DNA from: a virus
Length of the DNA: 32,531 nt
Direction: 5' to 3' (one strand)
IMG/VR virus record: IMGVR_UViG_3300025889_000530
Location: 1 to 32,531 of that record
In this document: piece by piece, positions 1,001 through 31,194 of the stretch
Position numbering within the stretch: the stretch's first letter is position 1
Layout: each line of letters starts with the position of its first letter
Notes under the pieces: generated by a model
What the model was told of the DNA's origin: nothing
Seen by the model: only the letters and a program-made list of their open reading frames with translations
The model's database searches: none
Program-made: the position numbers and the translations under genes

Positions 1001-1013
1001 TGATTATTTCCTG

Positions 1014-1759: not shown

Positions 1760-1767
1760 TGAATACC

Positions 1768-2238: not shown

Positions 2239-2569
2239 AGCTAGGCCACGTTACGTTGGTTAGATTTCCTTGGTCGTCTAGTTGTGGGTCTGCGGTTGCT
2301 GGTAGATCCCGTAGGGCTTGTCGGTAGTCGATTTGTGCTTGTGTCATGACTCTGTCGGATAGTGCCATCCAATCAGTTTGTGCTAGCAAATAATTCCGTT
2401 GTTTTCGTAAATCTGACCAAGCTTTATTTGTTTTATATTCATTTAACTTTTGAGTGACTACAGATTCGACTGGTGCTACCTCATCAGTTTGTGGAAACCA
2501 TTCGACTACCCCATTTTCAAACGAAAACGGGATACTAAACGATGAATAAAACTCTTGTAGATAATTCAT
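2231..2569 (-). CDS. Tail fibre assembly chaperone-like protein, 112 aa
   Basis: The second half contains RKQRNYLLAQTDWMALSDR followed by YRQALRDLP. This is the RxxLLxxTDWxxLxD...YRQALRDLP signature of phage tail fibre assembly/tail assembly chaperone-like proteins. I place the start at the ATG giving MNYLQEFYSS, because it forms an ATGA overlap with the stop of the upstream gene. An ATG four codons earlier (MENC) is possible. The location among fibre genes supports a role in folding or attaching fibres. Confidence 0.7.
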   Translation of the reverse strand: MNYLQEFYSSFSIPFSFENGVVEWFPQTDEVAPVESVVTQKLNEYKTNKAWSDLRKQRNYLLAQTDWMALSDRVMTQAQIDYRQALRDLPATADPQLDDQGNLTNVTWPSYE

Positions 2570-3189
2570 GCAATTTTCCATACTGCAATGTTTATCGGCC
2601 TGTCAGAATTCGCTGACCAACTAGCTGTCACTCCAGTTGAGTGTATAGCAGGTCTGAAATACAAGGTAACATTCGATGCTGCTGTATAAAGATGGGTTAC
2701 CATTGAACCGATTAAAATTCTGGGGTTATTTGCCGCAACGGCATCATCAACATATGCTTGCCCACCGTAGGTAAAAGTACCTTGTGAACTTGTAGTCAGT
2801 GTTGTTGTGTCATATTGAATAGCTCCATAACCAAAAGTAGTGGCATCTCTGGATTGAAAACCTCCACCAGAAATATGAATTAAGCACTTCTGACCAGACG
2901 TTAAAGTTACAGATCTGACTGTACCCCATCCATAATCGCTAGTTCGATCCCCAGAGTTTGACAGTTCTTGGTAGAAATCTACACCAATGACTACGCCAGA
3001 TGGAAACGTCACACCACTGCCAATCGTACCATTATTCAACGTCACCACCCCACCACTCTCACTCAAAACAGCAGTAGTTCCATCGCTTTTTGTGATCGAA
3101 TTCCCAGAGGATTTTAGTTTTGCTCCGTCCAGAGTAATTTCAGTAGCACTGACTAAACTGCTAGAGCGTTTGCTGCCGATATAGCTCAT
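2566..3189 (-). CDS. Tail fibre-like protein, 207 aa
   Basis: The protein starts MSYIGSKRSSSLVSATEITL, a start resembling that of the 51-749 product. It continues with ITKSDGTTAVLSESGGVVTL, a motif common in short tail fibre and knob proteins of aquatic phages. The C-terminal 120 residues are beta-rich (SVTLTSGQKCLIHISGGGF, ITVLYFR-like repeats) and could form a jelly-roll-like knob. That is inference from pattern only. Its start overlaps the upstream stop as TGATG. Confidence 0.65.
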   Translation of the reverse strand: MSYIGSKRSSSLVSATEITLDGAKLKSSGNSITKSDGTTAVLSESGGVVTLNNGTIGSGVTFPSGVVIGVDFYQELSNSGDRTSDYGWGTVRSVTLTSGQKCLIHISGGGFQSRDATTFGYGAIQYDTTTLTTSSQGTFTYGGQAYVDDAVAANNPRILIGSMVTHLYTAASNVTLYFRPAIHSTGVTASWSANSDRPINIAVWKIA

Positions 3190-3524
3190 CAGGTAATCTC
3201 CAGATAGCTGAGATGTACATCTACTGCTGATGCCGAATCTGCTGTGACTGTCAGGTTTTCATTCGGCACAAGTACCAGCTTTCCACCGTCTAAAAGATTT
3301 ACTGAAGATCCCACTGGAATTGGAATATTTGTGATGTAGCTTGTATAAGTAGGACTTCCGGTATCGTACTTAATTTCAACAGTTAGTGTACGAGACGCAG
3401 AAGATTTGTTTGAGGCTATCAGTCCGATGCAAACAACTTCTGTTGCAGAAGGCACATCTGACGCTAAAACATCAGTTCTTGATGTTCCTGCGGTTACTGT
3501 CTTTCGGAGGAATGCGTTTGCCAT
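3189..3524 (-). CDS. Small virion/tail protein, 111 aa
   Basis: The sequence begins MANAFLRKTVTAGTSRTDVL and is an all-beta protein. It contains VVCIGLIASNKSSASRTLTV and IPVGSSVNLLDGGKLVLVPN and ends LSYLEIT. Similar short proteins (start MANAF or MANSF, a VGSS...LLDGGK motif) are common in the structural region of aquatic phages, where they are usually unannotated. It follows the collagen-like fibre gene by 3 bp and overlaps the next gene. A role as a head or tail decoration or connector protein is plausible but not shown. Confidence 0.6.
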   Translation of the reverse strand: MANAFLRKTVTAGTSRTDVLASDVPSATEVVCIGLIASNKSSASRTLTVEIKYDTGSPTYTSYITNIPIPVGSSVNLLDGGKLVLVPNENLTVTADSASAVDVHLSYLEIT

Positions 3525-3527
3525 ATT

Positions 3528-4868
3528 TTAACCTAGTGCTATTGCGAAAGGTATTGGATCAGCACCTGCTGCGCCAGTAGCGCCACGAAGATCTCCTGTG
3601 CTAAAACCTAACCCGTCGTTACTCGTAAAAGTAACAATACCTGTGCTTGAATTATAACTACCTCCAGTAAAGCCAGTACCATCTGTGCCGTCTATGCCAT
3701 TGGTTCCGGCTGGGCCTGTTGCTCCTGTTGCACCTGTTGCTCCGGTAGCACCCTGTGGGCCTGTTGCTCCTGTTGCACCTGTTGCTCCGGTAGCACCCTG
3801 TGGGCCTGTTGCGCCTGTAGCCCCTCGTAAATCGCCCGTACTAAAGCCTAGTCCGTCATCACTCGTAAAAGTAACTATGCCTGTAGCGGAGTTGTAGCTT
3901 CCCCCAGTAAATCCAGTTCCGTCTACTCCAGCAGCACCAGTAGCACCCGTAGCTCCCTGTGGGCCTGTTGCGCCTGTAGCTCCCTGTGGGCCTGTTGCGC
4001 CTGTAGCTCCCTGTGGGCCTGTTGCGCCTGTAGCGCCTCTAACGTCTCCGGTACTAAAACCTAGCCCGTCATCGCTAGTAAACGTTATAACTCCAGTAGA
4101 ACTATCGTAGCTCCCACCCGTGAACCCATCTCCGGTAGAACCTGTAGCTCCTTGTGGGCCTGTAGCTCCTTGTGGGCCTGTTGCGCCTGTAGCTCCTTGT
4201 GGGCCTGTAGCTCCTTGTGGGCCTGTTGCGCCTGTAGCCCCCTGTGGGCCTTGTGCTCCCTGTGGGCCTGTAGCACCTGTAGCGCCATCTACTCCATCAC
4301 TTGGTTTGGCAAAGGTTACTTCGGTAGATGTACTATCTGTAAATTGAAACGTGATCCCGTAAGCAGCAGTGGGGTTTTGGGTGCTATTGCCTAGCGAAAT
4401 ACTACTAACTCCTCTACCTGCTGGGCCGGTAACCGAAGGGATCGTCAGGTCAAAGTTTGTAGTATTGCCTTGGTAGTCAGTAGTCGTGAAACGAGCCTGA
4501 CTGTTTCCTAGGTTCGTGATGCTCGTTACCGAAGTCCCGTCATTCCCTGCGTCTCCTTGATCCCCCTTGATCCCAGCAGGTAGTGTCAGTGTCTGATGGT
4601 ACGCATTGTTACCCCAGGTGACCGTAAACTGAGAACCATTCTGAACAATGCTATCAATTCCGTAGCCTCGTGGCCCCTGAGTTGCCTGAGCTACTATATG
4701 AGCCAGTGCACCGGAAACCGTAGTTGACGAGTAGGCTGTCTGATCTGTACTCGACAGAGGGATGTGACTAGCATTCAGCTCATCCGCAACGGTACTTAGG
4801 TCGTCACCGACAATTGGCCTTGAGGTGATAGTAAAAGTATTTCCTAGTGTATCTTTAAAACTAGCCAT
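3528..4868 (-). CDS. Collagen-like tail fibre protein, 446 aa
   Basis: After a globular N-terminus ([18 protein letters not shown] and a region with VTWGNN), the second half is built of Gly-X-Y runs ([10 protein letters not shown] type) that should form a trimeric collagen-like stalk. Three near-identical globular inserts, GFTGGSY(D/N)SSTG followed by [13 protein letters not shown](V/L)RG, interrupt the runs. The chosen start has an upstream GGAGGTGG ribosome binding site and overlaps the previous stop (TAATG). A longer frame starting five codons earlier would lose that site. Collagen-like phage fibres are well known; the long direct repeats may vary in number between isolates. Confidence 0.8.
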
Positions 4869-5713
4869 TATCTCCACCTCCAACCGACACGGATTCGTTT
4901 CCTCGATGCGCCTGAGTTTCTAGTCATTGAATTCGTAGACTCTGATTGGGTAGCATAGCGCACCATCTCTAGGAATCTCTGTCTAAAAACCCCTGATTTC
5001 TCTACGTTCCGTAATTCGTTCTCTTTCAAGTATGCCCGCTCAGCTACGCCAAAAACTAGCGCCTCCTGGTACATAGAACCAACTAGCGGAACGTCAGTAT
5101 CCGCCTGAGTATTGTTGTAGGTCAACCGATCTCTTGGAGGGTCGATCACTCCGTCAAACTTAATCACGGAAGTATCTACAATTGCAGTGATAATCCCTGT
5201 GGTTGTAGAGAGAACATCGGTAGAGCTGTCGCCCGTCACATCGAATACAGGGATCTGAGAGACTAACGTAGCACTAAAGAGGTGATCGGAGGTCGTCGGA
5301 GTCGGATAGACTCGGAAGGTAGGACTTGAGTTGTGCTCGATGACGATTGCTCGGATCGGGCCTGACTGACTCTGCCAGTTTGAATCTACAATCTGACCAC
5401 TGACTACTCGATTCTCGTCTAATACGCTAGAGGTAACAATCGGAATCTCAACGGAAGTATTCTCGATCCGAGCACGCTTGAGGTTCATCAGTGGCGGATT
5501 GGACGGACGATTAAAAGAAGAAGTAGCTTCTACAATCGTTACATCGGAAGTGACTATTGGAAACTCAGTAAGCCGGATGAACTCATGCTGAGCGTCATAG
5601 AGATACTGACGCAACTCCGGTGCAGTCCACCGCTTACTAGTATTAGAACTGTAACTCCCATCCTGTAGTAGAGTAGTTACTCTATCCAGAATTTGTGCTT
5701 GAGTCAGGCTCAT
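4868..5713 (-). CDS. Tail adaptor/head-tail connector-like protein, 281 aa
   Basis: The N-terminus ([20 protein letters not shown], then [20 protein letters not shown]) is helical and resembles the start of phage adaptor proteins that bind below the portal. The middle is beta-rich. The C-terminus returns to helix ([19 protein letters not shown]) and ends in a basic tail ([13 protein letters not shown]). That mix of a helical pair with a beta insertion suits connector proteins. Position after the capsid genes and before the fibres supports the call. Homology was judged by eye only. Confidence 0.55.
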
Positions 5714-6197
5714 TCTCCCCTACGTCTAGAGAGTGTTTTGTCTTTCTAGGTGCTCGTACTATTTTAGCTTTTGCTTCTGCTTGAGCTTCCATACCTGTAG
5801 CGGTATCGATAATTGTACCTTGAGCATCCTTAACAGGCATAATTACAGTAATCGGAAAACGTGGCCTCTGGTATCCTTCGGGTGGCTTGTAATACTGGGT
5901 CTGTGTGTACTCAGTAATTACACACTCTAACAACCTATTTATATGGACACCACTTACAATTCTAGCAGATCCTCTAGGAATTACTGTTGGAAACCCATTA
6001 ACCGATACACTAACTGCTTCAGTCTCGTGGTGATCCCGACCCATTTCCACACGGATTACTCCGAAACCTGGGGGTACGGATTCCGGCTTGCCATCCCACT
6101 CAGGGGCAAGGTTGTGTCGGCTATTGACTGTATGATAGCGACCAGTGCCTGAGTTGTACTCACTCGAAGTCTGGTTTGGTACGTATGTATAATTCAT
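5682..6197 (-). CDS. Hypothetical structural protein, 171 aa
   Basis: The product contains HNLAPEWDGKPESVPPGFGV, GFPTVIPRGSARIVSGVHIN and a PPEGYQRPRFPITV region. It ends in a charged, disordered, acidic tail. The C-terminal 10 codons overlap the start of the connector-like gene by 32 bp. The order after the capsid gene and before the connector suggests a head completion or head-tail joining role. I do not recognise a named family. Confidence 0.6.
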   Translation of the reverse strand: MNYTYVPNQTSSEYNSGTGRYHTVNSRHNLAPEWDGKPESVPPGFGVIRVEMGRDHHETEAVSVSVNGFPTVIPRGSARIVSGVHINRLLECVITEYTQTQYYKPPEGYQRPRFPITVIMPVKDAQGTIIDTATGMEAQAEAKAKIVRAPRKTKHSLDVGENEPDSSTNSG

Positions 6198-6214
6198 AGC
6201 TCCACTTTAGAATC

Positions 6215-6238
6215 AGAGGACTACCGAAGTAGTCCTCT
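6215..6238 (-). other. Strong intergenic hairpin with UUCG loop
   Basis: AGAGGACTAC and GTAGTCCTCT form a perfect 10-bp stem. In the leftward transcript the loop is UUCG closed by a C-G pair, the extra-stable tetraloop type. There is no T-run after it in the leftward direction, so it is not a classical terminator. It may protect or process the capsid-region mRNA, or set relative expression of the flanking genes. Confidence 0.7.
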
Positions 6239-6244
6239 TAGTTA

Positions 6245-6685
6245 TTATACGTAGCTCGTCACCTTTGTCGGGTGGACGTTCGCATCAAAGCGATAAACTA
6301 CATAAGCATAGACTGCTCCGGTAGAAGCAGATCCAGCCGTGTTAATAAATGTGAATCGGATCGTTCGATCCGGTAGTGAGGCTACCGGAACCCACTTCGT
6401 TTCCATCTCATAGATTGTTTCACTGTTAGCAGCGTTAAGATCTACAGGATTTGTTGGAGTAAAGTAGTCTTCATCCGCAGCTACGCCTACACCTGCAAGG
6501 TGTCCTGCGTCTACGGTAACTACTTGGTCGAAGTCATTCTTCACAACATAGACAATCTTCTCGACAATCGATTCGGGCGGAACCGTAATGTCGAAATATT
6601 TTGTCTCGTTAGCCGTCATAGCTGTCACAGCAATGTGTTCCGTACACTGTGGGACATAGCTCATTTGCATCTTGTCAGATCGCAT
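6245..6685 (-). CDS. Small virion protein next to the capsid gene, 146 aa
   Basis: The protein starts MRSDKMQMSYVPQC and is beta-rich: KYFDITVPPESIVEKIVYVV, RTIRFTFINTAG, AVYAYVVYRFDAN. It has no membrane or signal segment. A GGAG ribosome binding site in the same sequence context as that of the capsid gene (TAGGAGAAGAC) precedes the start, hinting at similar high expression. The position directly after the major capsid protein suggests a head decoration or stabilising protein. This is inference from location. Confidence 0.6.
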   Translation of the reverse strand: MRSDKMQMSYVPQCTEHIAVTAMTANETKYFDITVPPESIVEKIVYVVKNDFDQVVTVDAGHLAGVGVAADEDYFTPTNPVDLNAANSETIYEMETKWVPVASLPDRTIRFTFINTAGSASTGAVYAYVVYRFDANVHPTKVTSYV

Positions 6686-6706
6686 AGTCTTCTCCTAAGA
6701 GCTGGT

Positions 6707-6729
6707 AGCTAGTGCTACTAGCACTAGCT
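6707..6729 (-). other. Palindromic hairpin after the capsid gene
   Basis: AGCTAGTGC and GCACTAGCT form a 9-bp stem around TACTA. The whole 23-bp stretch is a near-perfect palindrome. It lies between the capsid stop and the next gene and lacks a T-run on the leftward strand. An RNA-stabilising or partial-termination element that lets the capsid mRNA accumulate is possible. Confidence 0.6.
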
Positions 6730-6740
6730 TAATAATAAAA

Positions 6741-7895
6741 TTAGACGTTGGTACTATACGGAGCAGGAGGATTGTACCAGTTGGTTGCTGAAGTCGTTCC
6801 GGTAGTTACCTCAGGGGTAAAGGCCGAAGCAGCAGTCTCAATGGAAACCATCCAATCTTCGTTTAAGATAATAGAACCAAACATAAACGTATACCCCACC
6901 GTACCACGCTGGCCTAGAGGGTCAGTACCGCTAGGAGTAGGTCGTACTACCTTTGGTACAATGCTATCCATCCCGCCAATCGTTGCTGTCCCTACAGAGT
7001 CTCTAGCAAAGATTACAATCGGGTAAACATCTGTTTTACCATTATTAGTCAATACAGGGGTGTTTGCATGTGGAGTAGCACCAGCACCCTGAGAAGTGTC
7101 ACCGTTTCGGTCAAACGGAACTGCTTGGGTAGTGGCAATAAAACGAATTCCGTTGTAGGAACCCATCTCAAAGTCCATCACATCTCCGCTAGCATACTTC
7201 TCAACTGGTACAAACCCTTCAATGTTCTCCAGGTCGTAGCGCAGATTCGGATGACAGATTGCAATGAATCCAGCACGGATCGGCTCAGTCGCTACATCAG
7301 GACTAGCAGCTAACATTTCGGTCATCTTCACGGCGTCATTGTTCTCTAGGAATCGAATAGCCTGATCGAACTCTTTACCCGTAGTAGATAAGATTCCGTT
7401 AACATTATCTCGTCTAGTTACTGCAACAGCAGGGCTAGAGTTAGATCCATCATTGGTGTAGATCACGTTAGCAGGGGAACGGAAATGCTTATAAGCTAGC
7501 ATGTCCATTGTCTCGGCTGCTTGGATCGCTTGTCTGTCACTAATGATACTGATGTAAGGATCTTGTCCTAAAAGTTCCATCAAGTCTGTCACAGGCGTGT
7601 AACGTCCGTACTGACGGATAGAATGTGAAATCACTTCAGATTCTAGCGTGTCGAAATCAGGAGTTACACCCTCGCCTAGTGGGGTAGTATTGATCGGGAA
7701 CTTCTTATATCTACGATGTCGAATCGTGTTGCCCTCTCCTGTACCCTTTGAATCCTTCTGAGCGAAGCGAGCAAAGGTTAAATGTTTTTGGGCAATCGGT
7801 AACATCTTTGACTGAATCGTCAAAGCATCCTCGGTGCTCAGATCTCCGTAAAGAGATCCAGCTACCGTTGTATAATTAGTAGCTGTAATAGCCAT
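6741..7895 (-). CDS. Major capsid protein, N4-gp56 family
   Basis: The 384-residue protein has the features of the N4-gp56 capsid group. The N-terminus (SKMLPIAQKHLTFARFAQKD) is followed by TIRHRRYKKFPINTTPLGEG, then SHSIRQYGRYTPVTDLMELLG. Later comes FIAICHPNLRYDLENIEGFVPV and a C-terminal TVGYTFMFGSIILNEDWMVSIE. The length fits the family. A strong AGGAG site precedes the start, only 8 bp after the scaffold-like gene. The protein forms the icosahedral head shell with an HK97-type fold, as known for the family. Confidence 0.9.
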   Translation of the reverse strand: MAITATNYTTVAGSLYGDLSTEDALTIQSKMLPIAQKHLTFARFAQKDSKGTGEGNTIRHRRYKKFPINTTPLGEGVTPDFDTLESEVISHSIRQYGRYTPVTDLMELLGQDPYISIISDRQAIQAAETMDMLAYKHFRSPANVIYTNDGSNSSPAVAVTRRDNVNGILSTTGKEFDQAIRFLENNDAVKMTEMLAASPDVATEPIRAGFIAICHPNLRYDLENIEGFVPVEKYASGDVMDFEMGSYNGIRFIATTQAVPFDRNGDTSQGAGATPHANTPVLTNNGKTDVYPIVIFARDSVGTATIGGMDSIVPKVVRPTPSGTDPLGQRGTVGYTFMFGSIILNEDWMVSIETAASAFTPEVTTGTTSATNWYNPPAPYSTNV

Positions 7896-7903
7896 GTCTT
7901 CTC

Positions 7904-8857
7904 CTATGCACTTGCACTAGTTAATTTGCTCCAAAACGCTAGTTTGTCGTCCTGCGACTCCACTCGTCTTGGAGCTTGATTACGTACAGGTGGCTTTGAG
8001 GGCATGGGCCGACTAGCAGCTACTCGCCTAGGATTAACTGCCGGAGCAGGAGCTTCTTCGGGAGGGCTAGGTCGGTGCGCCTGATCAGGGTAGTCGTATA
8101 AGTAAGATCTTACTAGATCCACAAAACCTACCGGATTCTCAAAGTCCAACACTGCATTCTTACGACTCGCACTACTTAGCACCCACTGAGCAAAGTCTGG
8201 ATCATCCAGATCTAGCTGAGCAGAGTTGGTAATGCCTAGTTCTTTGTTTGCTATTGCATGACGTTCGTTGAGCTTTTGCTGTACGTACTTCTCATGCTTC
8301 GCTTTGCGTACTTCTTGAAGATCTCCTTCTATCGCTTGGTTCGCTCGACCTAGCCTATGCTGGATCAAAGCGTCGATTCCTTGAAACAATTCGGGAAATG
8401 TCTCGACTTCTTCTCGAACAGTTGGTGATAGCTGATCCATAATGTCGGAAAAGATCGCATCCGCATTTGGTTCTGCAGTATTCTTACTACTCTCACTAGT
8501 AACTGGTGCTTGTTGAAGCTGAGCTACTTGTGCTTTTAACTGTTCAATACTATCAGCAAGCTGCTTATTCTCCCCTTTGAGGGTTGAAATGAACTGCTGT
8601 GAGTCTCGGAATCGCTTTACTAGTTTCGGGTCGTTAACTAGTGGATCTGGAGTCTCTGGTTCTACTTTGGGCGGAGGGTCTGGCTCCCGCTCAGGTTCGG
8701 GTTCGCTAGTTTCAGCTACCTCTTCAACTGGTGTCGCAGGAATAGGTGCACTAGCTTCTTGACCTGTGAGCTTGGCCCATAATTCATCTCGATCTAGAGG
8801 GGTTTCCTCTGTAGTTTCCTCCGGCTGAACCGGATTCTGGTCTGTTTTAGTAGCCAT
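7904..8857 (-). CDS. Probable capsid scaffolding protein, 317 aa
   Basis: The first 75 residues are acidic and proline-rich (PEPEREPDPPPKVEPETPD). A coiled coil follows (QQFISTLKGENKQLADSIEQ, then LKAQVAQLQQ). A middle helical region contains LSPTVREEVETFPELFQGID, and the C-terminus is basic and disordered (RRVAASRPMPSKPPVRNQ). A disordered acidic end, a coiled coil and a basic tail immediately before the capsid gene are the usual signs of a scaffold. No protease motif was seen. Confidence 0.75.
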   Translation of the reverse strand: MATKTDQNPVQPEETTEETPLDRDELWAKLTGQEASAPIPATPVEEVAETSEPEPEREPDPPPKVEPETPDPLVNDPKLVKRFRDSQQFISTLKGENKQLADSIEQLKAQVAQLQQAPVTSESSKNTAEPNADAIFSDIMDQLSPTVREEVETFPELFQGIDALIQHRLGRANQAIEGDLQEVRKAKHEKYVQQKLNERHAIANKELGITNSAQLDLDDPDFAQWVLSSASRKNAVLDFENPVGFVDLVRSYLYDYPDQAHRPSPPEEAPAPAVNPRRVAASRPMPSKPPVRNQAPRRVESQDDKLAFWSKLTSASA

Positions 8858-8866
8858 AAGGTCTAC

Positions 8867-9115
8867 TTAGCTCCGTTTGGTGTGACGTTCGGGGTAATCT
8901 AGCAGTTCTTTGAACGCTTGGATCTTCCCAACCCGTAAATTGTGGTCAGATAGCTGCTCCGGTGTCACCGGATGGGCTAATCTGTCCAGTTCTTGCTGCA
9001 TTCGTAGCCTCAAATACCCGCTCAGGTGCTGCCACAGTCTGCTTTGAGCGAGGATTTGCAGCTCTTCCGGTGACAGGGGGTGATCCTGCCATTGGTAGTT
9101 GTTCGGGTGCTCCAC
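8867..9115 (-). CDS. Small helical protein overlapping the portal gene end
   Basis: The 82-residue protein reads as two or three helices: LSPEELQILAQSRLWQHLSG, LRLRMQQELDRL, then VGKIQAFKELLDYPERH. Its first two thirds overlap the last 170 bp of the portal gene in another frame. The compact helical sequence with a (R/G)KIQAFKELL motif resembles small proteins often found between portal and scaffold in phages, so I judge it real. Its function is unknown. A role in portal or prohead assembly is possible. Confidence 0.65.
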   Translation of the reverse strand: MEHPNNYQWQDHPLSPEELQILAQSRLWQHLSGYLRLRMQQELDRLAHPVTPEQLSDHNLRVGKIQAFKELLDYPERHTKRS

Positions 9116-11213
9116 TCATCCCTTCCATTTGCTGACTTTGTAGTAATCTTTGGCGAACTTGCGCCATTTCTTCCTTAATTAGCACGCTCAAGTCGCTAAA
9201 ATCGCTAGGCTGACCTGGATCTACGCCCATTTCTAGCATTTTTAGCACTTTCTGGATTTCTAGATCCCGTCTCTGCTCTCCAATGGAGAGTCTTTCGTCT
9301 AAGCTAGCTTTCAATTTGACCTGCTGCTGCTCGATTTGAGCTTCTAGACCCTTGACTTTCGCCTCCATTTCTAGTTTTTGCTGCATAGCAGCCTGTTGCT
9401 GCTGCTGATCTCGCTGTAAATCCTCTGCAGTTTTTAACATTTCGTCAGGATCTAGCGAAAATGCACGTAACATCGGCTTGGCAAAACGATCAATCTTCAT
9501 CAAGTTGACTAGTGCCGGAACATTCATCACGATTTGCAGGAATTGCAACATCTGCTGGTTATGAATCTCCTCTGCTACAAACCTCTCATAGCCTGTACAG
9601 ATCGCTTCGGCATCACAATGCAGGTTTGGATCGTCGCTATCGACTAGTATCCAGCGGTATATCCCATCAATAGATCCTTGAAGTATCCGAGAAATGCTCT
9701 GAATGACAGAAGCTGTCTGCTTCTGGGAATTTGTATTGAGCAGGGACATCCCTGTGGCTGTTTTAGTCTGATAGCTAGCAGACTGACCTATCCCGATTGG
9801 GCTTTGACCACTAGAAAGATTGGCCTCTTTTTGCAGAAAGTTCATCATGTCCATCAAACCATGCGTCACATCCGGTATTACAATAGAACGGAAAGCACTA
9901 TTAATGTCTGTACCTGGCAAGAAAGTGATCGGTTTCCCAGGTTCTAGGTTCTGGAGGTCAACTTCATGTCCGATTTGCGAAGGATCTACGGCTAGTAGCG
10001 GCATAGAAGAGATCTGTTTGCCTTCCACATACATAGCCATTGTAAAGTTTAGTAGGCTTTGAATGTCCCTAATAGACCAGAAGATCCCATCACCCCAAAT
10101 ACTGTGTGGAACTTGCTGCCAGTAGCCAAAATGATACGGTAGCATCCCATCGTAAGGGCTGATTGTAGCTTTGACTGTACGATCTCCTAGTACATATACA
10201 CATACCGGAATGATCGTGAGGTCGCCAAAGTCAGACTTGTCAATAAATCCTTCCAGATCGTCTGCATCCAGAGTTCCCCAAAATTCTAAAAGCTCGTACT
10301 CCTTCTCCTCTTCCCCACCTGTTGTCTCCTGATGCGGATTGAGAGGCTGAGCAACCTCTGTTGTTTTGGTAAATACTCTGCGACCTAGTACATCGGAGAT
10401 AGCATCCTGATCAAAACCTGTGTCTAGCGTAAGTAGCTGACGAACTTGTACGGAAGATAGTTGCTTGCGTTCAATAATATAGCTAACGTCGTTAATATTC
10501 TCCGCTTCTGGAGAGGGATAGATATCAAAAATAGAGACGAATTTTGCAGAGGGAACTAGTTCTTCCTCGATTGCTGATTCGATTCGCTGTAGACGATTAG
10601 CGTATTTACCTTTATATACTGGGTAGTTTCGATGTTGTAGTACTGGGGACTTCATGACCCCAGTCCCGTGTAGTATCAGCTCGTGAATACTCTTCGAGAT
10701 CTCAGAAGTAAATTGGGTCTTGTCTAGTATATCTCGAATTCTATCTTCTATATTGTGTGCACGGTCTTCTAGAATTTCATCAATCGGTAGTTCTTTGCGG
10801 AGTTCAGCCAGATAAGTCTGCCTCTCCCTGTCCGTCATCTCAGCCATTCCCTCTGCAAACTGATGAATATCGCTAGGAATAAAGCGTGGGTATCGGGTCG
10901 GCTGGATAGTAAAAGGGATCTCGCCATTGCGGAATAGCATAGCGTTGATCTTGATGTGAGCAGAGGAAACCTCTCGTCGAGTAATCTGCATAAACGGCGG
11001 ACGGTTCGGTGCACTATCCGTATCATAGGGCGTACTATCGAATTTTCCGTTAAACGCATCTTCTCCCGGTAACCATCGATCCGCCTCTATATTCTTGCGA
11101 TAAGTACTAGCCGACTCAAACTTCTCTCGTACTAGCGTAGCAAGAGTATCACTGCGGGTTAGTGACTCGTCCACACTGGGTTCTGTGTTTTCGTCGTAGG
11201 GATTGTATGCCAT
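8946..11213 (-). CDS. Portal protein, 755 aa
   Basis: This long protein follows the terminase by 2 bp. Key stretches are NRPPFMQITRREVSSAHIKI near the N-terminus and ELILHGTGVMKSPVL with FVSIFDIYPSPEAENINDVS in the middle. Another is the phrase PYHFGYWQQVPHSIWGDGIF, typical of large portal proteins of podovirus-type phages. A C-terminal coiled coil rich in Gln (DLQRDQQQQQAAMQQKLEME) suits the portal barrel. It should form the dodecameric DNA gate at one capsid vertex. Its end overlaps the small gene at 8867-9115. Confidence 0.85.
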   Translation of the reverse strand: MAYNPYDENTEPSVDESLTRSDTLATLVREKFESASTYRKNIEADRWLPGEDAFNGKFDSTPYDTDSAPNRPPFMQITRREVSSAHIKINAMLFRNGEIPFTIQPTRYPRFIPSDIHQFAEGMAEMTDRERQTYLAELRKELPIDEILEDRAHNIEDRIRDILDKTQFTSEISKSIHELILHGTGVMKSPVLQHRNYPVYKGKYANRLQRIESAIEEELVPSAKFVSIFDIYPSPEAENINDVSYIIERKQLSSVQVRQLLTLDTGFDQDAISDVLGRRVFTKTTEVAQPLNPHQETTGGEEEKEYELLEFWGTLDADDLEGFIDKSDFGDLTIIPVCVYVLGDRTVKATISPYDGMLPYHFGYWQQVPHSIWGDGIFWSIRDIQSLLNFTMAMYVEGKQISSMPLLAVDPSQIGHEVDLQNLEPGKPITFLPGTDINSAFRSIVIPDVTHGLMDMMNFLQKEANLSSGQSPIGIGQSASYQTKTATGMSLLNTNSQKQTASVIQSISRILQGSIDGIYRWILVDSDDPNLHCDAEAICTGYERFVAEEIHNQQMLQFLQIVMNVPALVNLMKIDRFAKPMLRAFSLDPDEMLKTAEDLQRDQQQQQAAMQQKLEMEAKVKGLEAQIEQQQVKLKASLDERLSIGEQRRDLEIQKVLKMLEMGVDPGQPSDFSDLSVLIKEEMAQVRQRLLQSQQMEGMSGAPEQLPMAGSPPVTGRAANPRSKQTVAAPERVFEATNAARTGQISPSGDTGAAI

Positions 11214-11215
11214 AG

Positions 11216-12967
11216 TTAACTAGGAGCTACGTGCCTAAATAGGTTTCTTCTAGTACTAGTAGTGAGAGGAGATGTTTCAAAGCTATGTCGGTACGGGTGC
11301 TTCACTACTCCCCAGGCTGCTAGTGCGAGTGCCATCACACAGTCATCGTGACTTCCATGATTTGCTGCCTCTTTTCCATTTGCTAGTATAACAAAAGTCA
11401 TCAACTCGTCAACTATTCTAGGTGAGTGAACTAGTAGCTCTTCAGTACGTAATAGCTCACGTAGTACATCTATTAGTTGTGGCCTAGTACGAATCGTTGT
11501 CAGGAAGCCTACTCGTTTTGTACGTTTAGCTGTTTTCTCGTCCTGCTTGATCTCGTTATATAATTGAGTGTAGTGATGCTTATCGAGCAATGCTCTCAAT
11601 GTTACTAGTCCGTGGTTGTTTCGTTCTACTACTAACATAGCTTCATTATAGTATTGTGCTAGTGTTGTCAACTTCCAACCTAATAAATCAGGGTCAGTCT
11701 TTGTTCGCAGTAGGGCTACCTGCTCCATGCTATGAGCATCTAGTACTGTTGCTACTGACCAGTCTGTGTCCCGATCATTTATTTCTATCCCTTCGGAAAC
11801 ATCAACACCGATCCGGTAAGCTACTCCAGAAGTGGGTGGTCTGAAGACCTCAAGCTCCCCGAATTTATCCGGTTCCATTTTATAAATATAACTACCAGCC
11901 TCTGTGTAACGATTGACTTCTAGGTTATAGCGTTCCGGCTCACGCTCTAATTCTACTCTTTGGCGTATTCTTTCTAACAGATTTCGGTCAAACACCATCC
12001 TACCGCTGGCAAGGAAAGCTTCTCTAGCACTGGTAGGGTAATCTTGGTGAAAGTCTTCTAGCCTACCTTGACAATTGATATCGATAGCCTGTCTGCGCCA
12101 GTACAAGTTTTCTAGAGTTACTTTGAAACTGAAGTGACCTTCGTCTCCTAGGTCGTAGACAATCGTCTCATCAAGTAAACGTACTTCCTCTTCTCCTCCG
12201 TACCTGGGATCTTTGCCAAGCGATTCAACAAACTCTTCTTTTGCCGCTTTATTAGGAAACTTTTTCGAGTAGCTTTCAAAAACAAACCACGGGAAGAAAT
12301 CCGCTTCGTATCCTGTGCTAGTGCTGTCATGGGCGTCCCAAAACATCTGATAAAAGAAACCGCCTACCCCTCGTGCAGTAGACTCAAAGATCACTTCCGT
12401 ATTATCCGCTATTGCTACGTTTTTCAATAGTGCACTAGCATAATCTTTTGCGCTATTACCCCACCGAGACACTTCGGAGCAGTGGAGGTAGGAGATTTGA
12501 TCTCCGACGATCTCTGAGCCTCCTGCTGTACCTAGTCGGAATCTAGTATTCAATTGCTCCCAGTGTAGCTCTCGTCTGCCGCTATACCCCACTTTAGGTT
12601 TGAGAGCAGACGGGTGGTTCCGCTCCATCGTCCTTACCATATTAAATAGGGTCAGATTTGTTTCATCATCGTGCGCTACAATTGCGATTCTTTTCTGCTT
12701 AGCAAAAGTGCTAGCTCGATAGTATCTTGCGAGGCAGTAAGTGGAGAGTCCACTTCGTCGTGGTTTGAGTACTACTCGACGTACAAAGCCTGTCCGTTTT
12801 AACTGCTCTTGGCACTTATGATGTAGTATTTTTTGTACGTTATTTAGCTCAAAAGGTATCAATTGACCTGAGCCAAAAGCCTCTATTTTAATAATAGTTT
12901 TATAGTAGAAAAGAGGATCATCTTTTAATTTCTGTATAAACTTTTGATAGTCTGCTTCTTTTGCCAT
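11216..12967 (-). CDS. terL: Terminase large subunit
   Basis: The 583-residue protein has an N-terminal packaging ATPase and a C-terminal RNase H-like nuclease. The Walker A-like motif is KPRRSGLST (residues 68-76), where Leu stands in place of the usual Lys after Gly. Variants of this type with an upstream Arg are known in terminases. A Walker B-like strand with Glu is at ISYLHCSE (158-165), and the coupling motif is FESTARG (194-200). Nuclease acidic residues are D389 (YRIGVDVSEG), E448 (VVERNNHG) and D541 (HDDCVMAL). It cuts and pumps DNA into the prohead. No small subunit gene was recognised in the window. Confidence 0.92.
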   Translation of the reverse strand: MAKEADYQKFIQKLKDDPLFYYKTIIKIEAFGSGQLIPFELNNVQKILHHKCQEQLKRTGFVRRVVLKPRRSGLSTYCLARYYRASTFAKQKRIAIVAHDDETNLTLFNMVRTMERNHPSALKPKVGYSGRRELHWEQLNTRFRLGTAGGSEIVGDQISYLHCSEVSRWGNSAKDYASALLKNVAIADNTEVIFESTARGVGGFFYQMFWDAHDSTSTGYEADFFPWFVFESYSKKFPNKAAKEEFVESLGKDPRYGGEEEVRLLDETIVYDLGDEGHFSFKVTLENLYWRRQAIDINCQGRLEDFHQDYPTSAREAFLASGRMVFDRNLLERIRQRVELEREPERYNLEVNRYTEAGSYIYKMEPDKFGELEVFRPPTSGVAYRIGVDVSEGIEINDRDTDWSVATVLDAHSMEQVALLRTKTDPDLLGWKLTTLAQYYNEAMLVVERNNHGLVTLRALLDKHHYTQLYNEIKQDEKTAKRTKRVGFLTTIRTRPQLIDVLRELLRTEELLVHSPRIVDELMTFVILANGKEAANHGSHDDCVMALALAAWGVVKHPYRHSFETSPLTTSTRRNLFRHVAPS

Positions 12968-15493: not shown

Positions 15494-15520
15494 TTTAGTG
15501 CCGCTCGTTTAGTGCCACTC
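15493..15520. repeat. 14-bp tandem direct repeat between convergent genes
   Basis: GTTTAGTGCCGCTC is followed directly by GTTTAGTGCCACTC, differing at one position. It fills the gap between the converging stops at 15493 and 15519. No T-run or hairpin accompanies it, so its role is open. Confidence 0.6.
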
Positions 15521-15995
15521 AGTCCTCACTCATCAGCTTATCTAGCTGATCCTCAAACGAGATGACTTCCTTGATAGAGTTACCATGCTTATTAAGGGAG
15601 TCAGCCATCCTAGCTACCAAAGCAGTGTCGCCTACTGATACACCATGCTTAGCTAAGTCTAATTGTATCTGACGTACATCGGATAAACTCCACTGCTGTG
15701 CCTTTAGGGTTAGCTGCTCGGCACTGACCCTTTCAAATAGCTTTAACTTATCGAATAAGGAGTTCAGCGCATGGATAGCCCCTCTAGTATCGTTCTCTTC
15801 GTCAGCTTTGTCGTACTGTTTTCGATACTGTTCCGCCGCCCATAACGTATCCATCTCTTGTAAAAGCTCTTGTCTACGTTGGGTAACTCGATTGATTAAC
15901 TCTTTTTTGCTCTCTTCTAACTTGCTAATATTACTAGGCATTTCTAAAGTATTAGAGGTGGGAAGAAAATTTATTTTACGTCGTGACTCTAACAT
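15519..15995 (-). CDS. Lone leftward coiled-coil protein, 158 aa
   Basis: The protein is charged and helical throughout: KLEESKKELINRVTQRRQEL, then LLQEMDTLWAAEQYRKQYDK and LSDVRQIQLDLAKHGVSVGD. It ends in an acidic tail. It is the only leftward gene in the rightward cluster before the integrase. Its start lies 10 bp from the start of the divergent gene at 16006. No good ribosome binding site is visible, and a start at the internal Met (MPSNISK, 15941) is possible. Leftward orientation suggests separate control, for example expression in lysogeny. No family is recognised. Confidence 0.6.
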   Translation of the reverse strand: MLESRRKINFLPTSNTLEMPSNISKLEESKKELINRVTQRRQELLQEMDTLWAAEQYRKQYDKADEENDTRGAIHALNSLFDKLKLFERVSAEQLTLKAQQWSLSDVRQIQLDLAKHGVSVGDTALVARMADSLNKHGNSIKEVISFEDQLDKLMSED

Positions 15996-23553: not shown

Positions 23554-23580
23554 CTAGTTTTATTCTCACTACTGCGATGC
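23554..23580 (+). promoter_or_regulatory. Conserved motif copy 5
   Basis: The core is CTAGTTTTATTCTCACTA, starting 70 bp after the -35 box at 23484. The motif runs into the rusA start codon. If it were a T7-type start site, the mRNA would be nearly leaderless. Confidence 0.55.
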
Positions 23581-23951
23581 TTAGCTTTACGTTGGGGTTC
23601 CCCCCATCTTTGAATAGTTATTATAAAAAATATAACAATCGAATAATAATATCCAAAGCAGGGAAAGACTACCAAGAACAAGTAAAGTTACTAGCAATGG
23701 GTAGGCCAATGTCTTTTGTATCAAAAGACAGATTGCGTATGGATATGCTGGTCTACCCTCCCGACTTACGTCATCGTGACCTAGATAATTTACTTAAATG
23801 CACCGCTGATTCTTTACAGAACGCAGGGGTATTCCCCAATGATAGCCAATTAGATTGCCTCCATGTCGTACGTTGTAAGAAAGACAAACATAATCCTAGA
23901 GTCGAGGTGACCCTATCCTTATTCGAGATGGAGGATGTACTTTGCAGCTAG
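23577..23951 (+). CDS. rusA: RusA-family Holliday junction resolvase
   Basis: The 124-residue protein begins with the family pattern FTLGFPPSLNSYYKK. It carries the catalytic stretch PPDLRHRDLDNLLKCTADSL, with Asp68 and Asp70, followed by NAGVFPNDSQLDCL with a third Asp near 89-93. The end is RVEVTLSLFE. The family acts as a dimer that cuts four-way DNA junctions, resolving recombination or replication intermediates before packaging. The length is normal. No clear ribosome binding site precedes the ATG, which is odd beside its neighbours. Confidence 0.88.
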   Translation: MLSFTLGFPPSLNSYYKKYNNRIIISKAGKDYQEQVKLLAMGRPMSFVSKDRLRMDMLVYPPDLRHRDLDNLLKCTADSLQNAGVFPNDSQLDCLHVVRCKKDKHNPRVEVTLSLFEMEDVLCS

Positions 23952-24352
23952 ACACCATACTGGTTCGAGTACTTACAAAGTATCGTGAGCGAGCTACCAA
24001 AGGACAGGAAAAATACGGAACAACTCTAGATAGAACAGACCTAACAGCCCAACAGTGGCTCCTCCACCTGCAAGAAGAGCTAATGGATGCCACCCTATAC
24101 TGCGAGAAATTGATGAGTCCTAGTGAAAACCTACAGAATGCTATCAAACAAGAGATCGATTCTTCTCTAGAAGAACACCTGACTAGGGCCAACACCCTAG
24201 CTGTAGTTCACCAACGTCTTTGGCTACGAATCCTAGATAAACCAGGAGATCCTAGTAGCTATCAGTACACCCCCGACGAGATGAACCTACTTAAAGAGAC
24301 TGCCTTGAGCTACCTGAGTGGAGATATGTTGGGAAAGTCAACCACGAGTTAA
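23942..24352 (+). CDS. MazG-like nucleotide pyrophosphohydrolase-like protein, 136 aa
   Basis: The start is a TTG with GGAGG eight bp upstream, inside the end of rusA. Residues 24-53 (KYGTTLDRTDLTAQQWLLHL, then QEELMDATLYCEKL) match the small phage MazG-like pattern KYG-x-TLDR-x-DL...WL-x-H-x-x-EE-x-x-DA-x-x-Y, with acidic residues for metal binding. Such enzymes hydrolyse nucleoside triphosphates. The C-terminal 75 residues are helical. The last codons contain a canonical -1 slippery site, so a longer fusion product with the next frame is expected; this entry is the zero-frame product. Confidence 0.7.
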   Translation: MQLDTILVRVLTKYRERATKGQEKYGTTLDRTDLTAQQWLLHLQEELMDATLYCEKLMSPSENLQNAIKQEIDSSLEEHLTRANTLAVVHQRLWLRILDKPGDPSSYQYTPDEMNLLKETALSYLSGDMLGKSTTS

Positions 24353-24399
24353 TAGAGTGTAGTTTCAAGAGACTATTAACTGCACTGGAGTATGCAGTT
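24331..24399 (+). promoter_or_regulatory. Predicted programmed -1 ribosomal frameshift signal
   Basis: GGGAAAG (24331-24337) is in the exact phase TTG GGA AAG of the MazG-like frame, the same heptamer used in lambda gpG-T. A 9-nt spacer leads to a 9-bp stem, AGTTAATAG/CTATTAACT (24347-24355, 24373-24381), which contains the zero-frame stop. A second stem AACTGCA/TGCAGTT (24378-24384, 24393-24399) overlaps it by four bases. Confidence 0.7.
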
Positions 24400-24855
24400 G
24401 AGCCACTTTTCACGACAAAAGAAGTAGCCGATCTCGTAGGATGCTCACATCTGCTCATACGCCGATGGATTTCCAGAGGTAGTTTACCCTACGTCGAACT
24501 AGGAAAGTGGAACTACGTCCGTCTGAAGGATCTGGAAATCCTATTGAAGACGGGCCGACCTCCGAACCAAACAGACCGTAGACGTAGCACCTACTCCCAG
24601 TTATCTGGTAATTCCCCTGCGGAATTACGAACAATGCTATGGACACGGTACGTATATACTATGCGTAAGGAAGAGGATCGGAGGAGAACAACAGGGTCGA
24701 CCGAAAACGAATACCCTACTTTTTTGGAATGGCTCCAAACAGGTGGGAGAGAAACTCGGAGGGCATTACGCAAGCTGGAGTCCCAGCTTAATGGCGTACC
24801 CCTGTCAACTTTTTTAGAATCATTGGAGGACAAAGAGTATACCCAGACTCTCTGA
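24337..24855 (+). CDS. Helix-turn-helix domain reached by frameshift, 172 codons
   Basis: This frame is open from 24295 to 24855 but has no ATG, GTG or TTG before the conserved domain. The only near-start candidates are ATA at 24352 and CTG at 24385. It encodes LFTTKEVADLVGCSHLLIRR, then WISRGSLPYVELGKWNYVRL, a MerR/excisionase-type winged HTH. A basic, Thr/Arg-rich region follows (GRPPNQTDRRRSTYSQ), then a helical end. Entry by -1 frameshift at 24331 would make a 304-residue fusion (132 + 172). An assembly error is the main alternative. The DNA-binding part could be an excisionase-like or replication factor. Confidence 0.65.
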   Translation, partial: VNHELIECSFKRLLTALEYAVEPLFTTKEVADLVGCSHLLIRRWISRGSLPYVELGKWNYVRLKDLEILLKTGRPPNQTDRRRSTYSQLSGNSPAELRTMLWTRYVYTMRKEEDRRRTTGSTENEYPTFLEWLQTGGRETRRALRKLESQLNGVPLSTFLESLEDKEYTQTL

Positions 24856-24967
24856 CAGGTCGATAGCTAGAGTTTTAATTAGCGTTGTGGACTCACGGTA
24901 AATAGTAGACGGAAGCTTGAGGGAGCCTCCATTATTTTATTTACGGCTATCGACCTGTCAGAGAGTC
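24846..24967. repeat. Perfect 22-bp inverted repeat spanning 122 bp
   Basis: The 22 bp from 24846 (GACTCTCTGACAGG...) recur exactly in inverted form at 24946-24967 (...CCTGTCAGAGAGTC). Nested inside the 78-bp interior are GTAAATA/TATTTAC and a GGA-GCT/AGC-TCC stem. The left copy covers the stop codon of the HTH frame. There is no T-run and no target-site duplication. The rest of the gap, to 25072, contains small weak hairpins only. Candidates are an RNA stem, an invertible segment or a recombinase site. Confidence 0.75.
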
Positions 24968-25072
24968 GAGCAGGCAGACAGGCGTTACCTGCTTTAAAAT
25001 CCTTATGCCTAGACGGTTTCAATTACTCTGTCGTCTTTAAACTTAATCGAGTGCTGAATACCTAGGAGCAAG

Positions 25073-25690
25073 ATGCTTAGCCAAAACCAAGTTCAACTAC
25101 TATCTTTTAGTGGAGGTGACGAGTCACACGCCCGAGCAGCATGGGTATCTACTTCAACAGATCTTACCCAACACAGACATCGAGTACCAGAGCTATTATC
25201 TTTCCTTGCAGCAAACGATCACGGCTCACCCTTTGAGCACAGTTCGTTTACCTTTCATATCCGTAGCGATCTAGCTACCCACATCCAGTTTCTCAAGCAT
25301 CGGGCTGGAGTCAGTATCAATACGGAATCCGCTAGATACAAGGAGCTAACAGACGATAGCTTTTACTTACCAGGCGATTGGCCTGACGAGGCGAAGCACA
25401 GGGCTGCCAGGCAAATAGAAGACTGTATGAGCGGATACCACAAACTAGTAGACGAGCTGACTCCCGACATTGGTAGGAAGCGTGCGAAAGAAACAGCTAG
25501 GTTATTGATACCTTATGCACACCAGTTGAGTTACATAGCCACCTTCAACTTCCGTTCTTTTATGCACTTTCAGAAACTACGCAATAGTGAACAGGCCCAA
25601 GACGAGATCGCTACCATAGCAGACGAGATGCTTGAACTACTGCGTGCTACTGGGATGTATGAAGATTCCCTTATGGCTTTTGGTTACTGA
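25073..25690 (+). CDS. thyX: FAD-dependent thymidylate synthase
   Basis: The 205-residue protein has the ThyX signature KHRAGVSINTESARY (about residues 75-89), corresponding to RHRxxSxNxxSxRY with Lys for the first Arg. It also has NDHGSPFEHSSFTFHI near the N-terminus and a C-terminal FNFRSFMHFQKLRNSEQAQDEI. It converts dUMP to dTMP using FAD, NADPH and methylenetetrahydrofolate, as known for the family. AGGAG precedes the start. Its end overlaps the convergent integrase gene by 7 bp. With dcd it forms a dTTP supply route. Confidence 0.93.
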   Translation: MLSQNQVQLLSFSGGDESHARAAWVSTSTDLTQHRHRVPELLSFLAANDHGSPFEHSSFTFHIRSDLATHIQFLKHRAGVSINTESARYKELTDDSFYLPGDWPDEAKHRAARQIEDCMSGYHKLVDELTPDIGRKRAKETARLLIPYAHQLSYIATFNFRSFMHFQKLRNSEQAQDEIATIADEMLELLRATGMYEDSLMAFGY

Positions 25691-29535: not shown

Positions 29536-30838
29536 CTTTGTTAAACGATTACACCACTACAATGAGAGTGAACACTCATACTTGTCCGCTAGTAAGATGG
29601 AGATCTGGGGTAACTGCCCTGGAGCAGTGGAGCTAGCGGAACGTATCGTGTTACCCAACCAGCCCAGCAGCTACGCCATCGAAGGGACGATGGCCCACAA
29701 ACTAGCAGAGCAGACTCTTCGAGGGGACATCGAGATACCGGAAGACGGACTCGAAAAGCTAACGCAAGGTGATCCGGTTGCCAACGACTTCCTGCCATCT
29801 GTGGAATACTACGTAGATTATGTGATGGAGAGAGTACGGGAGCTACGGGCCGAGTATCGTAGAAAGAAAGTCAAGGACGAACCTAAAGTAGCAGTAGAGC
29901 AGCGAGTTGGCCTTAACCCTCTGCTAGATCGTGACCCTTCTGGTCATACCTTGATCAACATGGTCAGCATGTACGGAACCGTGGACTGTGTGATCCGTGC
30001 AGACAAGGGAACATGGGGGTTGCCGCTTGATATAATCGACTACAAACACGGGGCTGGAGTACCAGTAGAGATCTGTGATGACTCAGGCTTCGGCCCGAAC
30101 CCACAACTTATGTACTATTTACTAGGAGTACTCGCTGATGATTTTAGAATTCCTGCCGACTACGGCTTCACCGAGGCATACCTCAAGAAAAGGTATAGCC
30201 GCTACACTATTCACATTGTTCAACCACGTGTACCGGGGAAAGGAGGTAGCTATGAAGTAACAGTAGATCAAATACTACAGTTCTATCAGGAGCTAGTTGA
30301 CAAGAGCGCAAGAGCGTTGAATCAACACTTAGCCCAAGACATCGATGAACTCAGCCTTAACACAGGAGAATGGTGTCGTTGGTGTCGGGTAAAAGACTAT
30401 TGTCCTAAGTTTTTAATGACGCAAATACAAGAGAGCATGGAGGACTTTATGCAGTTCGATATGATGGAGACTGGAAAGATCGGTAAGAACGTCGATGATC
30501 TTGACAATGGTCAGCTTTCTGATATACTGACAAAAGCTGAAAGAGTGGAGCGAATGATTCGCTTAGTGCGGAATCATGCAGAAGCTAAACTATATGCCGG
30601 AGATAACATCCCTGGCTTTGGACTAGTAGACAAACGAGCTACAAAGAAATGGTCAGACGAGAAGCTAGTACTTGGGATTATGAAGCGTCTCAACATCGAC
30701 CCGTTCAAGTTCCTCAACCTGCCTTCTCCGAGTGCTTTACTGAAAGTACTACCGAAGACAGTAAGTACGGAACTGAATGACTTAGTAGTCAAAGAGTCTA
30801 GTGGTAAACGCTTAGGCAAACTTCGAGAGGAAGGATGA
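29507..30838 (+). CDS. DUF2800-like, Cas4/RecB-type nuclease, 443 aa
   Basis: The protein starts a PD-(D/E)XK nuclease fold with SYLSASKMEIWGNCPGAVEL (Cys37). Catalytic-type residues are H64 (GTMAHKLAE), D160 (GTVDCV), D178 and K180 (LDIIDYKHG), and Q200 (PQLMYYLL). Three later Cys (290, 293, 299; EWCRWCRVKDYCP), together with Cys37, match the iron-sulfur cluster of AddB/Cas4-like nucleases. It probably trims DNA ends in recombination or replication. The neighbouring DUF2815-like protein and polymerase are its usual companions. GGGAG precedes the start. Confidence 0.85.
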   Translation: MKLAQTTTDDFVKRLHHYNESEHSYLSASKMEIWGNCPGAVELAERIVLPNQPSSYAIEGTMAHKLAEQTLRGDIEIPEDGLEKLTQGDPVANDFLPSVEYYVDYVMERVRELRAEYRRKKVKDEPKVAVEQRVGLNPLLDRDPSGHTLINMVSMYGTVDCVIRADKGTWGLPLDIIDYKHGAGVPVEICDDSGFGPNPQLMYYLLGVLADDFRIPADYGFTEAYLKKRYSRYTIHIVQPRVPGKGGSYEVTVDQILQFYQELVDKSARALNQHLAQDIDELSLNTGEWCRWCRVKDYCPKFLMTQIQESMEDFMQFDMMETGKIGKNVDDLDNGQLSDILTKAERVERMIRLVRNHAEAKLYAGDNIPGFGLVDKRATKKWSDEKLVLGIMKRLNIDPFKFLNLPSPSALLKVLPKTVSTELNDLVVKESSGKRLGKLREEG

Positions 30839-31194
30839 CCAAGAAAGAAGTATCGATCAAACTCAACGTAACGAGTGAGACAGTCAGAAACTGGATACGT
30901 GATGGCGTGCTAGTTCCTGACGAGAAGGGAGAGTTCAAGGCCGAGGACGTTATGGCTTTGGATACCTCCAAGTACGAAGATAGTTTCCGATGGTGTACAG
31001 TCCAGCAAGCAGCACACTTACTGGGACTCACCCGTGCAACTATCTTTACCTACTGTTCTAGCGGCACTCTGGTTAAAGAGAGTATGCGAGGACGTAGTTT
31101 CATTTCCCTTGCCAGTATCCGTGACCATCTGATGATGGAGAGCAAGCAGATCACTGGTAAACTTAATAATGTTGTCGCCTTAATGGAGCAATGA
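30835..31194 (+). CDS. Protein with two helix-turn-helix segments, 119 aa
   Basis: The start overlaps the nuclease stop (ATGA). Residues 1-40 (MTKKEVSIKLNVTSETVRNW, IRDGVLVP) look like one HTH. Residues 52-100 (CTVQQAAHLLGLTRATIFTY, then SGTLVKESMRGRSFIS) look like a second, MerR/excisionase-type HTH. A C-terminal helix may dimerise. Two HTHs in a short protein suggest binding to paired sites. It could be a replication accessory factor or regulator. Confidence 0.7.
   Translation: MTKKEVSIKLNVTSETVRNWIRDGVLVPDEKGEFKAEDVMALDTSKYEDSFRWCTVQQAAHLLGLTRATIFTYCSSGTLVKESMRGRSFISLASIRDHLMMESKQITGKLNNVVALMEQ

Follow-up and report, generated by a model that had tools for sequence, protein, structure and literature searches.

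The question raised by this locus is how a reading frame that encodes a predicted DNA-binding domain, and that appears to have no start codon of its own, comes to be translated. The window (the whole 32,531-nt stretch of IMG/VR record IMGVR_UViG_3300025889_000530 that was analysed) is a fragment of a tailed-phage genome, in which a zero-frame open reading frame (ORF) at 23942-24352, starting at TTG and encoding 136 aa, is overlapped by a -1 frame that is open over 24295-24855 and encodes a helix-turn-helix (HTH) domain (Table 1). The earliest ATG, GTG or TTG of the -1 frame is the TTG at 24544, at the end of the HTH domain, which bears out the claim of a first-pass annotation, made from the letters alone, that this frame has no usable start. 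When the rarer starts CTG, ATT, ATC and ATA were looked for, ATA 24352 and CTG 24385 were found to precede the HTH domain, and their Shine-Dalgarno pairing is weak (-3.3 and -2.9, respectively; the median is -5.8 for 42 ATG-start ORFs taken as genes, and random positions give -2.3). The annotation had proposed a programmed -1 frameshift at GGGAAAG that joins the upstream and HTH frames. The frames, the phase of the heptamer, the 9-nt spacer, both stems and the 304-residue fusion (132 + 172 residues) were all recovered as it described them, and the frameshift itself is supported by a conserved site and by the conservation of both protein ends. A programmed -1 ribosomal frameshift, conserved within the early genes of one family of tailed phages, is the reading adopted here, with a probability of roughly 0.8.

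Table 1. Features around the frame junction, in coordinates of the window
Feature	Position	Strand	Remarks
N-terminal domain of zero-frame ORF	23942..24109	+	Separate gene in relatives
Small helical domain	24113..24349	+	Fused in frame behind the N-terminal domain in the window; alignment A1
GGAG	24320..24323	+	7 nt upstream of heptamer; present in 4/4 sequences
Slippery heptamer G_GGA_AAG	24331..24337	+	In exact X_XXY_YYZ phase
-1 frame after shift	24337..24855	+	172 codons; begins VNHELIECSFKR...; ends TGA 24853-24855
9-bp AT-rich stem	24347-24355/24373-24381	+	AGTTAATAG/CTATTAACT; 9-nt spacer after heptamer; not conserved
Zero-frame stop TAA	24350..24352	+	In relatives, stop directly after heptamer
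Second 7-bp stem, overlapping the first	24378-24384/24393-24399	+	Not conserved
Winged HTH, excisionase/MerR/BldC type	24400..24573	+	HTH_17 (match 24406-24549), TIGR01764, fold matches

Three divergent relatives of this locus were found through the terminase and ThyX, namely G011 (locus L108), G016 (L038) and G017 (L086). Their large terminases are 77%, 64% and 63% identical to that of the window, and their HTH frames share 37%, 37% and 31% identity with the window frame over about 80 residues. They represent three of the 18 records searched besides that of L001, a near-identical contig, and the comparison comprises four lineages only, two of them fairly close. Scans of viral contigs with alignments A1, A3 and A4 returned the same four records only (three of them with A3), and two pattern scans of genome contigs returned no relatives. 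A search of 50 records with A1 (49 of the 70 ThyX loci) recovered the three known records together with a weak 24-residue match (G046, E 0.0115), which is left out of the relative count. Among named phages, neither the small ORF nor the HTH of L038 had a match and the HTH of the window had a single weak one (E 0.1); plasmids, searched with the small ORF alone, gave no match.

The slippery heptamer, read as GGA AAG in the zero frame and as GGG AAA in the -1 frame, recurs in phase within the two-frame overlap of all four sequences (GGGAAAG in L108 and L038, GGGAAAA in L086), at the same codon as in the window. In the relatives the zero-frame stop follows it at once (TAA in L108, TAG in L038 and L086); in the window, where the residues ..GDMLGK match ..GDKSGK of the relatives, four further codons separate the heptamer from the stop. 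Ten of the last 20 zero-frame codons are invariant in amino acid, of which eight vary in codon, and the two columns without codon variation are GGA within the heptamer and GGA within the GGAG element upstream of it. All four sequences carry G at the first position of the heptamer, despite a residue change from Ser to Leu. Counting both strands, the window has 92 ORFs with 60 codons or more. In a chance test for XXXYYYZ with Y = A or T, a phased heptamer within the last 20 codons was carried by 4 of them, and the -1 frame that follows runs for 172 codons at this locus and for 16, 16 and 25 codons at the other three. The constraint is tightest in L038, where the -1 frame becomes open just 3 nt ahead of the heptamer and the zero frame ends right behind it; because of these limits, a continuous reading would be possible only by a shift within 13 nt, stop included, and these contain GGGAAAG. 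In the accessible text of a review, G_GGA_AAG is called highly shift-prone in Escherichia coli (PMC5009743). According to the accessible part of another study, V_VV.A_AA.R, under which the GGGAAAA of L086 falls, is among the most efficient motifs, and the best three motifs, without a stimulator, shift at only about 0.3% (PMC4066793).

Coding conservation extends on both sides of the proposed shift. The zero-frame protein is conserved to its last residue (..GDKSGK), with 23 invariant columns of 77, one of which is the first residue, where the TTG of the window row is read as M. The post-shift proteins begin VNHELIECSFKR, VNKAQLEKSFRQ, VDPRVLATNWKR and IDPRVLQKNWDR and align free of gaps up to EP.F in the four sequences. 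Over the 12 codons that lead from the heptamer to an ATG aligned among the relatives, the sum-of-pairs BLOSUM62 score reaches 117 in the -1 frame. The two remaining forward frames score -62 and -21 and the three reverse-strand frames 13, -54 and -12, and when the nucleotide columns were permuted 20,000 times, 117 was never attained. For the bridge between L038 and L086 alone, 6 of 11 differences fall at third positions, a weak codon-position signal. Taken at the level of sequence, the comparison supports a -1 frameshift maintained by selection.

In the mechanism proposed, most ribosomes would finish a small helical protein of 72-77 aa (136 aa in the window, where it is fused behind the N-terminal domain), while a minority would shift at G_GGA_AAR to GGG_AAA and read on in the -1 frame. 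Slippage would thereby yield a fusion of about 200 aa (304 in the window, or 247 when counted from ATG 24113) ending in a winged HTH of the excisionase/MerR type, which in the three relatives would be followed by a basic tail. Both the occurrence of slippage and its rate are inferred.

The main competing explanation, which appears quite unlikely, treats the HTH as a separate, translationally coupled gene that starts at an internal ATG in the relatives and at ATA or CTG in the window, the heptamer being coincidental. All three relatives indeed possess an in-frame ATG at the 15th codon from GGG, at the same aligned place; L086 has a second ATG region with good Shine-Dalgarno pairing (-7.1), and simple ORF calling predicts HTH ORFs from those starts in all three. 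However, the window has CTA at the aligned codon and offers only ATA and CTG with weak pairing, with no ATG, GTG or TTG. L038 (-3.3) and L086 (-4.0) show modest pairing at the first aligned ATG, and that in L108 (-6.4) most likely derives from a GGAG about 15 nt away. Moreover, only the -1 frame shows protein conservation over the 12 codons that precede the ATG, and a start at the internal ATG would cut a predicted first helix (residues 5-23 of the window model) that is encoded right after the shift and precedes the HTH domain. L038 also has a GTG at codon 7 of its -1 frame, and upstream of the heptamer this frame contains no ATG, GTG or TTG in any of the four sequences. To judge from the alignment, a start codon common to all four sequences is lacking for the HTH frame. 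The first-pass annotation would have abandoned the frameshift if relatives had an HTH gene with its own start and no slippery site; the relatives do have possible starts of their own, but the slippery site is present there as well.

Transcriptional instead of ribosomal slippage would give the same protein, but is very improbable as the source of the -1 product, since the site has just three G and three A and polymerase slippage generally needs longer homopolymers. An assembly error or a decayed pseudogene, with one gene split by an indel, would fit the single frame break and the missing start codon of the window HTH but is barely conceivable and is rejected in view of a second assembly, which is identical in the region, together with the three divergent relatives, where the same break lies at the same codon and both frames are conserved. 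The second assembly is contig L001 (IMG/VR 3300006802_000129), which differs from the window at 9 of 16,237 positions without any gap and shows 0 mismatches over 23577-25072. An extra or missing base near 24331-24352, named in advance as an observation that would overturn the proposal, is therefore not seen, and because L001 is identical at the site and gap-free overall, a sequencing indel there is unlikely.

Two kinds of element were considered as stimulators of the frameshift. The longer stem is uncommon by position, as only 0.12% of 5,000 sampled positions are followed, at a distance of 5-12 nt, by a Watson-Crick stem of 9 bp or more. Folding of the window against shuffles indicates little extra stability, with z values of -1.7, -0.4 and -0.7 for 50, 70 and 100 nt. 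Among the relatives, L108 has a hairpin of its own (z -2.15 at 70 nt), that of L086 is weaker (z -1.33) and L038 has none to speak of, and RNAalifold on the four sequences found 0 shared pairs and no consensus structure. With unremarkable z-scores and no common pairs, the stem-loop is rejected as a conserved stimulator. The first-pass annotation had proposed to look for conservation of heptamer and stem alongside an open HTH frame; the heptamer and the open frame recur in three divergent relatives, but the stem does not. The GGAG element, in turn, is possibly a Shine-Dalgarno-like stimulator of the frameshift. The spacing for -1 stimulation is given as 9-14 nt in the accessible text of the review (PMC5009743), and the 7 nt found here is shorter; in the accessible part of another study, such elements were searched at 6-17 nt (PMC4066793), and because that range takes in 7 nt, the role is possible. 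In the E. coli dnaX sequence, AGGGAG lies 10 nt before the heptamer, compared with GGAG at 7 nt here, and because of this difference in spacing the parallel is lowered to a possible one.

The zero-frame partner of the HTH is a small helical protein, and not the MazG-like enzyme that the first-pass annotation had assigned to this frame. In all three relatives the order is a gene for the N-terminal domain, a separate small ORF of 77 (L108), 72 (L038) or 72 (L086) aa ending in GDKSGK, and the HTH frame in -1. The supposed MazG-like domain forms a separate upstream gene there, and its part as the conserved frameshift partner is not supported. In the window, ATG 24113 aligns one residue after the start of the small ORF of L108. 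AlphaFold predicts helices only for the small-ORF homologue of L038, with fair confidence (pLDDT 78.8), and a fold search with the small domain gave no convincing match, the best in the PDB having an E of 1.1. Weak matches of one stretch of the small domain to Pfam PAZ_2 and Argonaute fell below the cut-off and were judged to be due to chance.

As for the N-terminal domain, its matches comprise 144 named phage records, and short homologues occur in 18 further IMG/VR loci; its relatives in PHROGs are of unknown function. For the 136-aa protein, searches of Pfam and NCBIfam at E<=1 gave nothing, MazG families included, and a PDB search with a profile of eight N-domain homologues gave no match. 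Likewise, hhalign of the N-terminal domain against the MazG gene of two relatives returned a probability of 1.3% (E 0.041) in a single comparison of shallow alignments. A very remote relation between the two is still conceivable. A MazG-family gene comes after the HTH gene in G016 and G017; that of G017 belongs to PF03819 (E 3.4e-6), and that of G016 is its 65% identical homologue.

The domain added by the shift is assigned through both sequence and fold. In the window it matches HTH_17 (PF12728; E 1.5e-6, 28.8 bits, cut-off 27) and the excise family TIGR01764 (E 2.2e-7, 31.1 bits, cut-off 28.8). L086 scores 29.6 with HTH_17 (above 27) and 23.2 with TIGR01764 (below the cut-off), L038 scores 15.9 with HTH_17 (below the cut-off) and has no TIGR01764 match, and L108 matches neither. 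The model of the window HTH has a mean pLDDT of 66.7, and its best alignment is with BldC (Z 8.0, 54 residues, 1.8 A); Pukovnik Xis aligns with Z 6.5 over 51 residues at 1.8 A, and the other fold matches listed are mostly MerR-type or excisionase domains, together with a few packaging and partition proteins. A comparison of the HTH with a viral fold library gave no match with E <= 0.001. The tails that follow the domain are basic in the three relatives (net +12 to +15), and the window tail, which is longer, has a nearly neutral charge (+2).

It is tentatively proposed that the fusion acts as a DNA-binding early regulator or a recombination directionality factor, and that the commoner small protein associates with it or titrates it. 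An early regulator or excisionase role is suggested because the HTH gene follows RusA and lies near an opposite-strand integrase in the window and G011. RusA and integrase were recognised in the window by Pfam and the large terminase (TerL) by tblastn against annotated terminases, and ThyX, an SNF2 helicase and the portal were named by eye from translations. The order RusA, N-terminal domain, small ORF/HTH is common to the window and G017, and also to G011 with one extra ORF between. In the window (behind ThyX) and in G011, the integrase is encoded downstream on the other strand; in G017 it is situated about 41 kb from the HTH gene on the contig, and none was found in the 7.8-kb contig of G016.

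An alternative on function, considered unlikely, accepts the frameshift but takes the fusion to be a small terminase subunit, such that a few DNA-binding copies would be present among many short subunits. In G016 and G017 the HTH gene precedes TerL, from which it is separated by MazG, ThyX and a further ORF that looks nuclease-like by eye, and a packaging role is conceivable because of this position; weak matches to the PHROG 57 terminase small subunit were also obtained (E 0.0034 for the window and 0.021 for L086), and packaging proteins are found among the fold matches of the HTH at Z 5.1-5.9. Nevertheless, terminase and packaging proteins do not stand out among those fold matches, the excisionase and MerR/BldC matches are better, and in the window and G011 the gene is on the strand opposite to TerL, within an early block that ends at the integrase. 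Furthermore, another conserved protein is encoded upstream of TerL and on its strand, though not adjacent to it, in the window, G011 and G017. In the window this protein (15519-15995, - strand) has 158 aa and no convincing family match, and it is a candidate small terminase.

The phage lambda gpG/gpGT frameshift uses the heptamer GGGAAAG. As far as the accessible text of the review goes, that system shares with the present one the -1 direction, a shift site close to the 3' end of a small ORF lying upstream, and a minor, C-terminally extended product (PMC5009743). Here, however, the gene is located beside RusA and the integrase, away from tail genes, the added part is a winged HTH, and the gene pair has no tail-chaperone match in PHROGs. 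IS3-family OrfA/OrfAB likewise represents a two-form gene with a DNA-binding domain and a -1 shift, but in IS elements the DNA-binding product is, per the accessible part of the review, generally the upstream ORF made without a shift (PMC5009743), whereas here it is downstream. E. coli dnaX resembles the locus in its -1 shift, in a heptamer ending in AAG and in the GGAG upstream; unlike here, its shift gives a shorter product, and the present locus has no conserved stem. The lambda cI mRNA combines the gene of a phage DNA-binding regulator with possible early -1 frameshifting, which the accessible text of the review describes as not experimentally investigated and as giving a short, degraded product, a ribosome sink (PMC5009743), whereas the shift described here would add the DNA-binding domain. 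Winged HTH proteins of the excisionase/MerR/BldC type (TIGR01764, PF12728; Pukovnik Xis, BldC) are alike in domain sequence and fold, but differ in that here an N-terminal helical partner would be joined through a frameshift and a long or basic tail follows; the function is predicted from these resemblances.

In the accessible text of the sources, the phage frameshifts described, in lambda and others (PMC5009743) and in SPP1 (PMC6316719), lie mostly in virion assembly genes, and the frameshift candidates of a further study include three new prophage clusters and four predicted transcriptional regulators (PMC4066793). No phage frameshift that adds an HTH was found among the titles and abstract openings listed from the open-licence literature, which is no proof of absence. 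The mechanism is already known; a phage gene pair whose second part is the DNA-binding domain, opposite to the usual order in IS elements, did not occur among those titles and abstract openings. It is plausible, on evenly balanced odds, that a phage DNA-binding regulator (or excisionase) is made only as a frameshift product, so that slippage fixes its dose relative to a partner from the same start and sets the stoichiometry of a complex at translation, as gpG:gpGT sets the tail chaperone ratio, and that a gene boundary lost in the lineage of the window tied a third domain to the pair. If true, recoding would also set the dose of a phage DNA-binding protein, in an early block. It would mean, too, that such proteins are overlooked or cut short by simple ORF prediction; the window has its first standard start only at the end of the HTH domain.

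Several further features of the window were recorded. The ThyX gene (25073-25690) changes place, lying downstream of the HTH frame in the window, G016 and G017, whereas G011 has it on the other strand, beside the large terminase. When 1-12967 is compared with the rest of the window, late genes are on the - strand; in G016 and G017 the terminase and portal come after ThyX on the same strand as the HTH, and the late module has been inverted or rearranged between relatives. A perfect 22-bp inverted repeat (24846-24867/24946-24967, with 78 bp between the arms), whose first arm overlaps the end of the HTH frame, sits just before ThyX and the integrase; it also occurs in L001, is absent from the fetched stretches of the three relatives by exact search, and is possibly an attachment or binding site. 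Rfam and tRNA scans of the window gave no matches. At 30835-31194 (+ strand), a 119-aa protein with two tandem helix-turn-helix segments, recognised by eye, is possibly another excisionase or regulator. Finally, the protein encoded at 3528-4883 (- strand) contains long collagen-like G-A-T-G-P-Q repeats and is perhaps a tail fibre or adhesion protein.
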